64,000 nt of DNA from an uncultured delta proteobacterium. Lineage in GTDB: Bacteria; Myxococcota_A; UBA9160; JAFDET01. The notes beneath the pieces are model-generated. The model saw only the letters and a list, made by a program, of their open reading frames with translations, did not search any database and was not told the DNA's origin. Made by a program: the position numbers and the translations under genes. Where the stretch lies: the NCBI GenBank assembly GCA_947259215.1, contig CAMYLJ010000005.1:71482-135481 (forward strand), in the 5' to 3' direction. The first letter of the stretch is position 1, and every line of letters begins with the position of its first letter. Below, piece by piece: positions 38,133 to 43,161 of this stretch.

Positions 38133-38402
38133 TCAGGAAGGGGTCGCCGTCTCCATCCGGTCGATGGCGTGCACGGGAGGCGCGTCGCCGGACATGAGCG
38201 GGGTGATCGCCGCGTAGACCAGCTGTTGGCGTTGCACCAGACTCTTGTCCGCGAAGACCGCCGACACCACGCGCACGACGAAGTGCCCGGCGCTCTGGGG
38301 CAGGACCTGGACCTCGGCGCCCTCGACGGCCGCCTCGATCCGCTCGCGCAGCTGGCGCGCCACGTCGTCGGCGTCGGGCTGGCCGATGATCTTCAGCGCC
38401 AC
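38133..38402 (-). CDS. bolA: BolA family protein
   Basis: The 89-residue product shows the BolA pattern: VARQLRERIEAAVEGAEVQV, GHFVVRVVSAVFADKSLVQR and RQQLVYAAITPLM. The helical VxRHRxV-like segment appears as LVQRQQLVY. BolA proteins bind monothiol glutaredoxins and share an Fe-S cluster. The gene sits 3 bp after a CGFS glutaredoxin fusion gene, so the two surely work together. GTG start. Confidence 0.93.
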   Translation of the reverse strand: MALKIIGQPDADDVARQLRERIEAAVEGAEVQVLPQSAGHFVVRVVSAVFADKSLVQRQQLVYAAITPLMSGDAPPVHAIDRMETATPS

Positions 38403-38405
38403 CGT

Positions 38406-39329
38406 TCAGTACCGCGGAACGCTCGGGTCGATCTCCTGACTCCAGGCGTCGATCCCACCCACCACGTTGTGGACGTCGCGGAAGCCGAGCGCCGCGAAGT
38501 GCTCGGCGGCGGCCTGGCTGCGGCCGCCGTGGTGGCAGTGGATCACCAGGGTGGTGTCCTTCGGCAGCCCCTCGATCTCGTGCGCCGTCGCCGGATCCAG
38601 CAGCCGCGCGCCCTCGATCTTCGCCTGCTCGCGCTCCTCGAGGGTGCGCGCGTCCAGGAGCACGAAGGAATCGCCCGCGTCGAGCTTCGCCTTCAGCTCG
38701 TTCACCGTGAGCTGGTTGACGGGCGCCGGGGCATTCGGGTTGTCGATGTGGAAGCCCGGGCCTTCGTCGGTGTCCACGCAGTCGATCTTCAGGCCGTCGG
38801 CGCGGGAGGCGGTCCCCGGATCCATGTGGATCGTGATGCCTGCGGCCTCGACCGAGACGCCCGGCCCCGGCGGGCCCATGTACAGGCTGTGGCCGAAGCG
38901 CGCGTCGATCGAGAGGTGCAGCGCCTGGCCGGGCCGTTGCTCCGCGATCTGGCGCAGGGCCGCGGCGGCGGCGTCGCTGAGCGTCACGTCGGGTGTGATC
39001 GTGGCGGGCGCCTCGACGCCCAGCTTGCCGGCCAGCTCACCCGAGCCGTAGAGCTCGCTCACGATGTCGCAGCCGCCGATGAACTCGCCCTTGACGTAGA
39101 GCTGGGGGATGGTCGGCCAGCTGGAGAAGGCCTTGATGCCGTTGCGGATGTCCGGGTCCGCCAGCACGTCGCAGGTGGCGTAGTCCGGGATCAGGCTGTC
39201 GAGGATCTGGATCACCTGGGCCGAGAACCCGCACTGGGGCGCCGTGCGGTCGCCCTTCATGAAGAGCAAGACCGAGTTGGCTTCGATCAGCGAGGCGATC
39301 CGCTGGCGGGTCGCGTCGTCGAGGTCCAT
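38406..39329 (-). CDS. Monothiol glutaredoxin (Grx4) / IscA-like / rhodanese three-domain fusion
   Basis: The 307-residue product has three parts. Residues 1-105 are a CGFS monothiol glutaredoxin (APQCGFSAQ with Cys33, then WPTIPQLYVKGEFIGGCDIV). Residues about 110-200 resemble an A-type Fe-S carrier (VTLSDAAAAALRQIAEQ ... GLKIDCVDTDEGPGFHIDNP) but lack the three conserved cysteines; GPGF replaces the CGCG-type end. Residues about 205-307 are a rhodanese with catalytic Cys265 in VIHCHHGGRS. A role in Fe-S cluster or sulfur trafficking is likely. It is followed by bolA after 3 bp. Confidence 0.92.
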   Translation of the reverse strand: MDLDDATRQRIASLIEANSVLLFMKGDRTAPQCGFSAQVIQILDSLIPDYATCDVLADPDIRNGIKAFSSWPTIPQLYVKGEFIGGCDIVSELYGSGELAGKLGVEAPATITPDVTLSDAAAAALRQIAEQRPGQALHLSIDARFGHSLYMGPPGPGVSVEAAGITIHMDPGTASRADGLKIDCVDTDEGPGFHIDNPNAPAPVNQLTVNELKAKLDAGDSFVLLDARTLEEREQAKIEGARLLDPATAHEIEGLPKDTTLVIHCHHGGRSQAAAEHFAALGFRDVHNVVGGIDAWSQEIDPSVPRY

Positions 39330-39419: not shown

Positions 39420-40103
39420 TCAGCGCTGGAGCATCTCCTGGGCGTTCTTCACGAAGGCCTCGCTGCCCTCGGCGTCGTCGGTCAGCGCCGGCACCTTGAA
39501 CGGCACCTCGGCGCCCTTGCGGCAGGCGGGCCGCCCGTTCATCTGGCCGAGCCAACGCTGCAGGTGCTCGAGCCCTTCCACGGGCACGCCGGACCACTTG
39601 TAGGTGCGCACCCAGCACCAGTTGGCGATGTCCGCCAGCGAGAAGTCTCCGGCCAGCCACTCGGCGTCGGCGAGCCCGGCGTCCAGCACCTCGAACAGGC
39701 GCCGCGACTCGTTCTGGTAGCGCTCGATGGCGGCCGGGATCTTCTCGGGGAAGTAGCGGTAGAAGACGTTGGCCTGGCCCATCATCGGCCCGACGCCGCC
39801 CATCTGGAACATCAGCCACGAGAGCACGCGCGCGCGGCCGGCGCGATCGCTCGGCAGCAGGCGGCCGGTCTTCTCCGCCAGGTGGACCATGATCGCGCCG
39901 GACTCGAAGATCGGCAGGTCCCCCTCGTCGCCGTCGACGATCGCGGGGATGCGTCCGTTCGGGTTGATCGCGAGGAACCAGGGCTCCTTCTGCTCGTTCG
40001 CGCCCAGGTCGACGGCATGCACCTCGTAGGGGAGTTGGAGCTCCTCGAGGGTGCAGGAGGCCTTCCAACCGTTGGGCGTGGGGGCGGTGTAGAGGGTGAT
40101 CAT
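39420..40103 (-). CDS. Glutathione S-transferase family protein (YfcG/YghU-like)
   Basis: The 227-residue product carries [20 protein letters not shown], then [38 protein letters not shown], and [16 protein letters not shown]. It is a paralogue of the YfcG-like protein at 30250-30990, with the same TPNGW N-terminus. It probably handles GSH-dependent disulfide exchange. It faces another GST gene across 81 bp containing an inverted repeat with overlapping promoter hexamers, and lies 90 bp before the glutaredoxin fusion. Confidence 0.9.
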
Positions 40104-40184: not shown

Positions 40185-41189
40185 ATGCCCGACCCCTATC
40201 GCATTTTCGGCGCCGAGGTCTCGCCGTACTCGGTCAAGGTCCGCTCCTACTTCCGCTACAAGGGCGTGCCCCACGAGTGGATCGTGCGCGACGTCTCGAC
40301 CCAGGCCGAGTACCAGAAGTACGCCAAGCTGCCCCTGATTCCGGCGGTGGCCACCCCCGAGGACGAGGGCCTCCAGGACTCGACGCCGATCATCGAGACC
40401 GTCGAGGCTCGCTTCCCCGAGCCCTCGATCCATCCGGGGGATCCGGCCCTCGCGTTCCTCTCCGCCCTGCTCGAGGAGTTCGGGGATGAGTGGGGTAACA
40501 AGTGGATGTTCCACTACCGCTGGGCGCGCGAGGTGGACCAGGACGCGACCGCTTCCCGCATCGCGGAGCTGATGGCGCCGCCCGACGCCGACGACGGGCA
40601 GCGGGCCGGCATCGCGGGGATGGTCAAGAACCGGATGGTGAATCGCACCGGGTTCGTCGGCTCGAGCGAGCAGACCGCGCCCCAGATCGAACAGTCGTTC
40701 CGCGACGGGGTGGCGCAGCTCGAGGCGCACCTGGCCGGGCGCGTCTACCTCTTCGGTGCGCGGCCCGCCTTCGCCGACTTCGGGCTCTGGGGCCAGCTCT
40801 ACAACGCCTGGACCGATCCCACCCCGGGAAGGATCCTGCGCGACCGCACGCCCGCCGTGTGCGCCTGGATCGACCGCATGCTGGAGCCCAAGGCCGAGGG
40901 CGATTTCGAGCGCTGGGAGACCCTGGAGCCGACGCTCGCGCCCTTCCTCGCCGACCAGGTCGGGGCGCTCTTCCTGCCCTGGTCCGACGCCAACGCCCGG
41001 GCCATCGCGGCCGGCGAGGATGAGTTCACGGTCGAGCTGGCGTCGGGCAGCTGGACCCAGAAGCCGCAGAAGTACCACGCCAAGTCGCTCGCGGCCCTGC
41101 GCGAGCGCTACGCCGCCGTGTCCGACCGCTCGGCCCTGGACCCGATCCTCGAGCGGGCCGGCTGCCTGCGCTGGCTGCGAGCGAGCTGA
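40185..41189 (+). CDS. Glutathione S-transferase-fold protein
   Basis: The 334-residue product has an N-terminal thioredoxin-fold domain ([20 protein letters not shown], then [20 protein letters not shown]). A longer helical C-terminal region includes [19 protein letters not shown]-like [18 protein letters not shown]. The SPYS segment takes the place of the usual CPYC, so serine is the likely active residue. The extra length over ordinary GSTs is in the C-terminal half. It starts an operon with the thioredoxin-fusion and UGSC selenoprotein genes, 8 bp before the next start. Confidence 0.85.
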
Positions 41190-41197
41190 GGTCCGCC

Positions 41198-42637
41198 GTG
41201 GCGCTCCCGCGCGAGGGCTTCGTCGCGGTGGTAAAGCGCGACTGCCCGACCTGCGTGGTGGTGGCGCCGGTCCTCGCGGAGCTGGCGGGCAAGGGCCTGC
41301 CGCTCGTGGTCTACAGCCAGGACGATCCGGACTTCCCCGAGGAGGTCGCGCAGCGCGTCCACGACGCCGACCTCGAGGCGTCGTACCGATTCGGGATCGA
41401 GACGGTGCCGAGCTTGCTGCGCCTGGAGGGCGGCCGTGAGACCGGCCGCGCCATCGGCTGGGTGCGCGGCGACTGGGAGGCCCTCACCGGGCTCGAGGGT
41501 CTGGGCGCGGGCCTGCCCGACTGGCGTCCGGGCTGCGGCTCGAAGAGCGTCGAGCCGGAGGTCGCCGACGCGCTGGCGGCGCGTTTCGAAGGCCATCGTC
41601 TGCGCGCGCGCAGGATCGAGCTGGGCGCTCTCGAAGAGGACTGGGAGGCCGCCCACGACCGCGGCTGGAGCGACGGGCTGCCGGTGGTGCCGCCGACCCC
41701 CGAGCGCGTCCTGCGCATGCTTCGCGGAACGACGCGCGACCCCGCGGAGGAACTCGGCGCGATGCCGCCGGATCTGGCGCCGTGCAGCGTCGAGAAGGTC
41801 GCGATCAACGCGGTCCTCGCGGGCTGCCGACCCGAGTACCTGCCCGTGGTGCTGGCCGCGACGGAGGCGGCGCTGGAGGAGCCCTTCTGCCTGCACGGGC
41901 TGCTGGCGACCACCTGGTTCTCGGGCCCGATGGTCGTGGTGAACGGTCCCATCGCGCGCGAGATCGGGATGAACTCCGGCGTGAACGCACTCGGCCAGGG
42001 CAACCGGGCCAACGCCAGCATCGGCCGCGCGCTCCAGCTCGTGGTGCGCAACGTGGGAGGCGGACGCCCGGGCGGTGTGGACCGCGCGACCCTCGGTCAG
42101 CCCGGGAAGTACAGCTTCTGCTTCGCGGAGGACGAGGCCGGCTCGCCCTGGGAGCCCCTGTCCGAGGAGCGCGGAGTCGCCGCCGGACGTTCCGCGGTGA
42201 CGCTGTTCGCCGCCGGCGGCGTCCAGGGCGTGCTCGACCAGCAGTCACGCACCCCGGAGTCCCTGGCTGCGAGCCTGGCCGCCTGCCTGCGCGCGGTCTG
42301 TCACCCGAAGCTTCCGATCCTCACCGATGCCTTCCTGGTGGTGAGCCCCGAGCACGCGCGGGTCTTCCAGGAGGCCGGCTGGTCGAAGGCGCGCCTGCGC
42401 CAGGAGCTGGCCAGCCATCTGGTGGTGCCGGGACGCGAGGCGGTCCGGGGCGCCGGTGGGATCGCCGAGGGCATGCCCGCGGGCTTCGCCGAGGCCGATC
42501 TGCCCAAGTTCCGCGAGGGCGGGCTCCAGGTCGTGCACGCCGGAGGGCGCGCCGGCATGTTCTCCGCCATCATCGGGGGGTGGCCGGCCAGCGGTGCCGT
42601 CGGGAGCGAGCCGGTGACCCGAGAGGTGACGACGTGA
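41198..42637 (+). CDS. Thioredoxin domain fused to a large domain of unknown function, UGSC partner
   Basis: The 479-residue product has a thioredoxin-fold first domain: [20 protein letters not shown] with CPTC (Cys16, Cys19), and cis-Pro71 in ETVPSLLRL. From about residue 145 comes a second domain with strong internal conservation: [79 protein letters not shown] and [15 protein letters not shown] do not know a biochemical function for this second domain. The stop overlaps the UGSC selenoprotein GTG by 4 bp. The CPTC thiols are well placed to recycle the partner Sec/Cys centre. Confidence 0.75.
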
Positions 42638-43161
42638 GCGAGCCGCGCATCCTGCTGGATCCGACCGGCGAGCTGGCTCCCGCGCGCCGGGAGGCGCAAC
42701 CCCGGTTGCCGGGGCTCCAGGGTCGGACCATCGGCCTGCTCGACATCTCGAAGCCGCGCGGCGACGTCTTCCTCGACCGGCTGGCGCAGCGGCTCGAGGC
42801 GTCGGGCGCCGCGGTGGAGCGCTATCGCAAGCCCACCTTCACCCGCGTGGCGCCCGACGACCTGCGCCGCGAGATCGCGACCCGTTGCGACGCGGTGATC
42901 GAGGCGCTGGCGGATTGAGGCTCCTGCACGTCGTGCAGTGTGCACGACACGACGGACCTGGAGCGCCGCGGCGTGCCCGCGATGTTCGTGGCGTCGAGCG
43001 AGTTCGTGGACGCCGCCGAGGCCCAGTGCGAGGCGCTCGGCTTCGCGCCGGAGCGGGTCTTCGTGCCGCACCCGATCCAGGACCGCACGGACGACGAGCT
43101 CGGCGCCCTGGCGGACGCGGCCTTCGATGCCGTCGTCCGGAGCCTGTGCCAGCAGGGCTAG
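42634..43161 (+). CDS. UGSC-motif selenoprotein
   Basis: The 175-codon gene reads through TGA at 42916-42918 as selenocysteine, residue 95: ALADUGSCTSCSVHDTTDLE. This matches the UGSC family named from metagenomic selenoproteomes, whose function is unknown. The first half has GLLDISKPRGDVFLDRLAQR and CDAVIEALAD. The second has GVPAMFVASSEFVDAAEAQ and VFVPHPIQDRT. Protein similarity and GTG-TGA coupling to the previous gene continue on both sides of the TGA. An 8-bp hairpin follows 12-30 nt after it. The UxxC and CxxC pairs overlap (U95, C98, C101). Confidence 0.93.
42930..42948 (+). promoter_or_regulatory. Candidate bacterial SECIS hairpin of the UGSC gene
   Basis: GTCGTGCA (42930-42937) pairs with TGCACGAC (42941-42948) around GTG. 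The loop centre is 21 nt after the Sec TGA. A competing stem CTGCAC/GTGCAG lies just before it, so a switch between folds is conceivable. Confidence 0.75.

Follow-up and report, generated by a model that had tools for sequence, protein, structure and literature searches.

What does a selenoprotein of the UGSC family do, and with which partners? The question is raised by a locus in the genome of an uncultured delta proteobacterium, where the gene for a UGSC-family protein is preceded by one for a thioredoxin fused to a large unnamed domain and by one for a GST-fold protein. The locus lies within a stretch of DNA of 64,000 nucleotides that is called the window below. A preliminary description of this DNA had proposed that the three proteins form a redox or conjugation relay, in which the thioredoxin domain recycles the Sec/Cys center and the GST-fold protein delivers or uses a thiol conjugate.

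Organization of the locus

The three genes were confirmed to run in the same direction (+ strand) and encode, in order, a GST-fold protein of 334 amino acids (40185–41189), which is the first gene of the local operon; a thioredoxin-DUF fusion protein of 479 amino acids with a GTG start codon (41198–42637); and a UGSC-family selenoprotein of 175 amino acids with selenocysteine at position 95 (Sec95; 42634–43161). Their tight spacing is as first described: 8 bp (41190–41197) separate the first two genes, and the second and third overlap by the 4 bp GTGA, in which the GTG start lies at 42634 and the TGA stop occupies 42635–42637. The third protein scores above the cut-offs of both UGSC models, PF24696 (E 1.8e-45; 155.6 bits, cut-off 25) and NF041046 (157 bits, cut-off 125), and by these scores, its motif, and its Sec codon it is a member of that family.

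The in-frame TGA is a selenocysteine codon

The TGA at 42916–42918 (+ strand) is codon 95 of the UGSC gene, with 94 codons upstream and 80 downstream. It is followed by codons for GSCTSC, giving UGSCTSC, and the UGSC (or CGSC) motif is kept in relatives. All 19 aligned UGSC orthologues, which are 60 to 78% identical to the window protein, stay in frame past this codon, and nearly every UGSC gene found in a search of 91 genomes of the window's class contains exactly one internal TGA. Among more distant loci, 79 have TGA at the Sec position, 11 have a Cys codon (TGC or TGT), and one has TAG. The single TAG is from Blastococcus, a genus in which UAG encodes selenocysteine; the Sec-UAG proteins reported for genomes with a Sec-UAG tRNA include some with the UGSC motif (PMC5330540). 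The window's own genome carries a tRNA-Sec, whose anticodon is tca, as well as a SelB that scores over its cut-off; among the class genomes, several of which are incomplete, SelB exceeds the cut-off in 58 of the 67 with UGSC versus 11 of the 24 without it.

A bSECIS-like hairpin is present at 42930–42948 (+ strand), comprising an 8-bp stem (GUCGUGCA/UGCACGAC) and a GUG loop; its first nucleotide is 14 nt from the T of codon 95, and its loop lies 19 nt after the UGA. No SECIS family of Rfam matched the window, and an RNAfold z-score near 0 indicates that the hairpin is not marked by folding energy alone; it was assessed by synonymous-site constraint instead of Rfam. Codons 99 through 105 are identical at the nucleotide level in the 19 orthologues, save for one CAC/CAT difference, and this invariance covers two serine codons and two fourfold sites, whereas other invariant residues vary their codons. 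The mean major-codon frequency is 0.92 for codons 96 through 105 and 0.71 elsewhere (Mann-Whitney p 1.5e-4). This constraint fits what is expected of a bacterial SECIS inside a coding sequence. The TGA at 42916 is thus a Sec codon, as the preliminary description had it, and no homologue with the same gene order was found to have a plain stop there. That the codon is an ordinary stop, in a gene that is truncated or decayed, has next to no probability: we found no point in its favor, and it is opposed by the frame conserved past the TGA, the Cys and TAG variants, the SECIS-like constraint, and the presence of tRNA-Sec and SelB.

An unnamed domain is the near-obligate partner of UGSC

Residues ~142 to 479 of the middle protein have no Pfam or NCBIfam match, and the same is true of the partner domains of 23 relatives that were scanned. 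This portion corresponds to an unnamed domain of ~340 amino acids (DGLP...NAVMAGC...; 41624–42637, + strand) that is conserved across phyla, which bears out the earlier view of it as a large conserved domain with no assignment. Because neither database holds a model for it, many copies, such as those in plasmid records, are annotated only as "hypothetical protein". On a plasmid of Paracoccus ferrooxidans (L171; 7387–7956 and 12359–14134) that also carries selB, it is the UGSC gene, with TGA at its Sec position, that is annotated as two hypothetical proteins. Sequence searches of the PDB with partner-domain, UGSC, and GrdB/PrdB profiles returned no solved relatives. A class I fumarase fold was considered for the unnamed domain and dropped. 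It had headed the Foldseek rows, weakly (TM ~0.2), for a poor first model; it was absent from those for a better second model, which were filled by the UGSC domain, and profile comparison by hhalign gave it a probability of 0.5.

Homologues of the middle protein occur in 70 of the 91 class genomes. UGSC lies within 1 kb, always on the same strand, for 126 of the 136 middle-protein matches in these genomes, and 127 of the 139 UGSC matches are paired with a partner domain. Thus, the objection that the two families might co-occur no more often than chance does not apply. None of the 91 genomes has UGSC without a partner. The reverse occurs in three: in two of them the partner match lies at a contig start, and in the third it is a fragment of 43 residues. 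In five genomes both families are present yet unlinked. Across 284 genomes of the phylum, the identical 48 carry both families, and 47 of these 48 belong to the class. Scanning 84,980 species yielded 80 loci spanning Beta-, Alpha-, and Gammaproteobacteria, Rokubacteria, Chloroflexota, Actinomycetota, haloarchaea, and others; a UGSC homologue is present at 76 of the 80, in one case degenerate.

The two domains are also fused in nature. The 80 loci include 26 UGSC-partner fusions in which only the Sec codon interrupts a single reading frame, and one fusion from the window's class was modeled with a mean pLDDT of 95.6 and a pTM of 0.94, from which the two domains are predicted to hold a fixed arrangement. 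Adjacency, co-occurrence in 48 of 48 genomes, and these fusions support the view that the unnamed domain and UGSC are a functional unit; the former is the near-obligate partner of the latter, and the conserved core of the locus is two genes, not three.

A Global Ocean Sampling survey reported UGSC fused to a conserved domain called Unknown_1, which is probably the partner domain of the window (PMC2398784). In metagenomes from the ocean and from fresh water, UGSC ranked among the selenoprotein families of highest abundance, and the survey called UGSC/Unknown_1 limited to a few aquatic organisms; the partner rule, the thioredoxin fusion, and the relation to GrdB described below are not part of that report (PMC2398784).

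Two or three partner copies, often with a single UGSC, occur at nine loci (L087, L099, L103, L111, L112, L114, L118, L130, and L137), and such sets may form hetero-oligomers.

UGSC is related to the Sec domain of GrdB and PrdB

UGSC has been described as an orphan that is likely thioredoxin-like (PMC2398784). In the fusion model, however, the UGSC domain is a flavodoxin-like alpha/beta structure, and its best PDB rows are of the broad flavodoxin-like kind, with Z values of 8 to 10, which indicate a shared fold class rather than membership of a family. The protein is therefore predicted to be flavodoxin-like rather than to have the published thioredoxin fold.

Profile searches point to a more specific relationship. 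Among 35 diverse UGSC proteins, 20 match TIGR01917 (best 3.7e-4), and five of the seven families most often hit by the 35 are GrdB/PrdB models. When UGSC was compared by hhalign with profiles of GrdB/PrdB from this phylum, the Sec region aligned with a probability of 95 (E 3e-8), whereas unrelated controls gave 0.2 to 0.5. The corresponding sequence in a true GrdB from the class is UGTCTRC, and the UxxCxxC motif that it has in common with the window's UGSC has been noted for GrdB before (PMC13188914). By these alignments, UGSC is homologous to the Sec-bearing C-terminal domain of GrdB (TIGR01917/PF07355) and PrdB.

The locus nevertheless differs from the GrdB/PrdB systems. The similarity to GrdB spans ~80 residues, and the TIGR01917 score of 17.1 bits against a cut-off of 602 shows that this is not a full-length GrdB. 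The 23 partner domains have no Pfam match to a pyruvoyl proprotein of the GrdE/PrdA type, and aligning the partner-domain family with the GrdB/PrdB family by hhalign gave a probability of 0.2%. With no pyruvoyl partner found, the system should be kept apart from the glycine and proline reductases. In addition, grdA and grdC are not evident, the Sec domain of the window's type stands alone or is fused to the unnamed domain, and its hosts are often aerobic.

The window's genome has further matches to the GRDB profile (G000:C2:27361–27801, G000:C14:38139–38561, and G000:C18:3962–4237). The first of these (also L221) reads VPVUPMC and is a PrdB-like selenoprotein of a sort that is common in the class.

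A thioredoxin domain is built into the partner protein

The N-terminal domain of the middle protein (41198–41512, + strand) gave no match to any Pfam thioredoxin model at the thresholds used. Its predicted structure is a thioredoxin fold (VIA Z 10.8, rmsd 2.2, 99 residues), which upholds the claim that a CPTC thioredoxin domain is fused to the large domain. The CPTC redox motif (residues 16–19; 41243–41254, + strand) is invariant in a 16-row alignment, and CPTC, CETC, or CDTC precedes DGLP by ~139 to 165 residues in 20 of 20 thioredoxin-fused class loci. Fold and CxxC are common to this domain and to thioredoxin/CcmG-like proteins; unlike these, it is divergent enough to escape Pfam, has CPTC in place of CGPC, and is fused to the partner. 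The fusion occurs across the orthologue group of the class, and all 80 outside loci that were tested lack it.

The motif of UGSC varies with this fusion. Cys98 (42925–42927, + strand), the proposed resolving cysteine of UxxC, is nearly invariant. Cys101 (42934–42936, + strand), the third cysteine of UxxCxxC, is specific to the thioredoxin-fused group: it is found at 43 of 43 fused loci versus 1 of 19 unfused class loci, where the 43 represent about 31 distinct places, two locus sets overlapping, and the correlation amounts, owing to the relatedness of the loci, to fewer than 62 independent observations and rests largely on one clade. The overlapping UxxC and CxxC pairs first noted in the window therefore hold for the thioredoxin-fused group, but they are not general, since most relatives read UGSCTSW.

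Free thioredoxin genes accompany the pair elsewhere. In Arthrobacter, trxB, trxA, the partner gene, and a Cys-containing UGSC gene form one run in which trxA and the partner gene overlap by 4 bp, and trxB adjoins the pair in Roseovarius, in Variovorax, and at five other loci. Because trxB and trxA precede the pair in Arthrobacter and the third cysteine accompanies the thioredoxin fusion, the proposed recycling of the Sec/Cys center by thioredoxin is plausible.

A candidate reductase

UGSC, the unnamed domain, and the built-in thioredoxin suggest one reductase that is related to the Sec part of glycine reductase. More specifically, UGSC and the unnamed domain would be the two halves of a thioredoxin-recycled, GrdB-like enzyme whose substrate site is in the unnamed domain, a proposal that we regard as evenly balanced between right and wrong. 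The known enzyme offers a model: the selenolate of glycine reductase takes the substrate carbon, cleavage of the selenoether leaves a selenenylsulfide, and thioredoxin serves as the reductant and electron donor (PMC10298544). UGSC is a stand-alone relative of the GrdB/PrdB Sec-bearing C-terminal domain, and its selenolate is predicted to lie where a helix begins after a core strand of the flavodoxin-like domain. By analogy with glycine reductase, a small, probably carboxylated, substrate would bind in the unnamed domain and be attacked by the Sec95 selenolate; the Se-substrate adduct would then be cleaved and a selenenylsulfide would form with Cys98. Cys101, followed by the CPTC domain of the partner protein, would reduce the center, with electrons coming from NADPH through thioredoxin reductase (TrxB).

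The neighboring genes weakly suggest a small organic acid as substrate: of the 80 loci, 29 have genes for solute-binding proteins of carboxylate transporters nearby, 14 for CoA-transferases, and 11 for acyl-CoA dehydrogenases. GrdB-like proteins are also candidates for the C-F cleavage of fluoroacetate (PMC10838667). We put forward more tentatively, and think it somewhat likelier to fail than to hold, the broader proposal that UGSC and the unnamed domain are an unrecognized, widespread group of thioredoxin-recycled Sec/Cys reductases that carry out GrdB-type cleavage of small organic acids or CoA esters in aerobes, archaea, and anaerobes; if so, the window holds the version with a built-in thioredoxin. 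With a near-obligate partner, the relation to GrdB/PrdB, and the built-in thioredoxin, what was an "unknown redox protein" becomes an enzyme that can be tested.

The same thioredoxin association could instead mark UGSC as a thioredoxin-dependent peroxidase or antioxidant selenoprotein, with the partner as its dedicated docking or electron-transfer subunit. A UxxC motif with thioredoxin nearby, the aerobes among the hosts, and the prevailing view that orphan selenoproteins are mostly redox enzymes (PMC9312934, PMC13188914) are all compatible with this. We judge it unlikely, however, given a fold that is flavodoxin-like and not that of a thioredoxin or peroxiredoxin, GrdB and PrdB as the nearest families, and a large conserved partner with carboxylate and CoA genes nearby, which fit metabolism better.

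A different division of labor would make the unnamed domain a catalyst able to act alone, and the Sec/Cys center a redox switch or accessory. In some fused relatives this center has been lost, the sequence reading MGTS in Sporomusa and GGNP in L106, so the unnamed domain may act without it, which favors this alternative, as do the loci with two partner copies for one UGSC. Yet Sec is kept at the center in the great majority of copies, and the 70 class genomes with a partner homologue offer no clear case of a partner without UGSC, the three exceptions being the contig starts and short fragment already mentioned; we consider it quite improbable that the partner is the sole catalyst.

The UGSC part lacks the Sec/Cys center or is unrecognizable in L169 (a Sporomusa plasmid), L170 (a Vibrio plasmid), and L106. 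Genes for aconitase X and DUF126 are located near the partner gene in Sporomusa and Vibrio.

GST is a lineage-specific companion

The first protein of the operon has both GST domains, with matches over cut-off to GST_N_3 (PF13417; 1.6e-11) and GST_C_2 (PF13410; 1.9e-10). Its place in the proposed relay fared less well. Adjacency of the GST gene to the pair is confined to the window's own family f1, in which the gene is operonic in four of four genomes, and, in divergent orientation, to G087; the gene lies 12 to 18 kb from the pair in four genomes of one genus. These arrangements would suit a three-part conjugation relay in which the Sec center reductively cleaves a glutathione conjugate that GST has made or delivered. 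However, orthologues of this GST are found in 73 of the 91 class genomes, including several without UGSC, and in most they are unlinked to the pair; elsewhere, the pair's relatives mostly lack an adjoining GST. A requirement for GST was rejected on these grounds, and we hold the three-part relay to be very unlikely. GST is a lineage-specific local companion outside the conserved core; in family f1 only, it may provide or consume a thiol conjugate.

A second GST gene (39423–40103, − strand) is divergent from the operon GST gene and back to back with it. Also upstream in the window, a gene for a glutaredoxin-rhodanese fusion (38409–39329, − strand), with a sub-threshold match to Fe-S biosynthesis (IscA-type) proteins between its glutaredoxin and rhodanese domains, lies beside a BolA gene (38136–38402, − strand). 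In the relative G018, a Grx gene is located divergently beside the GST gene.
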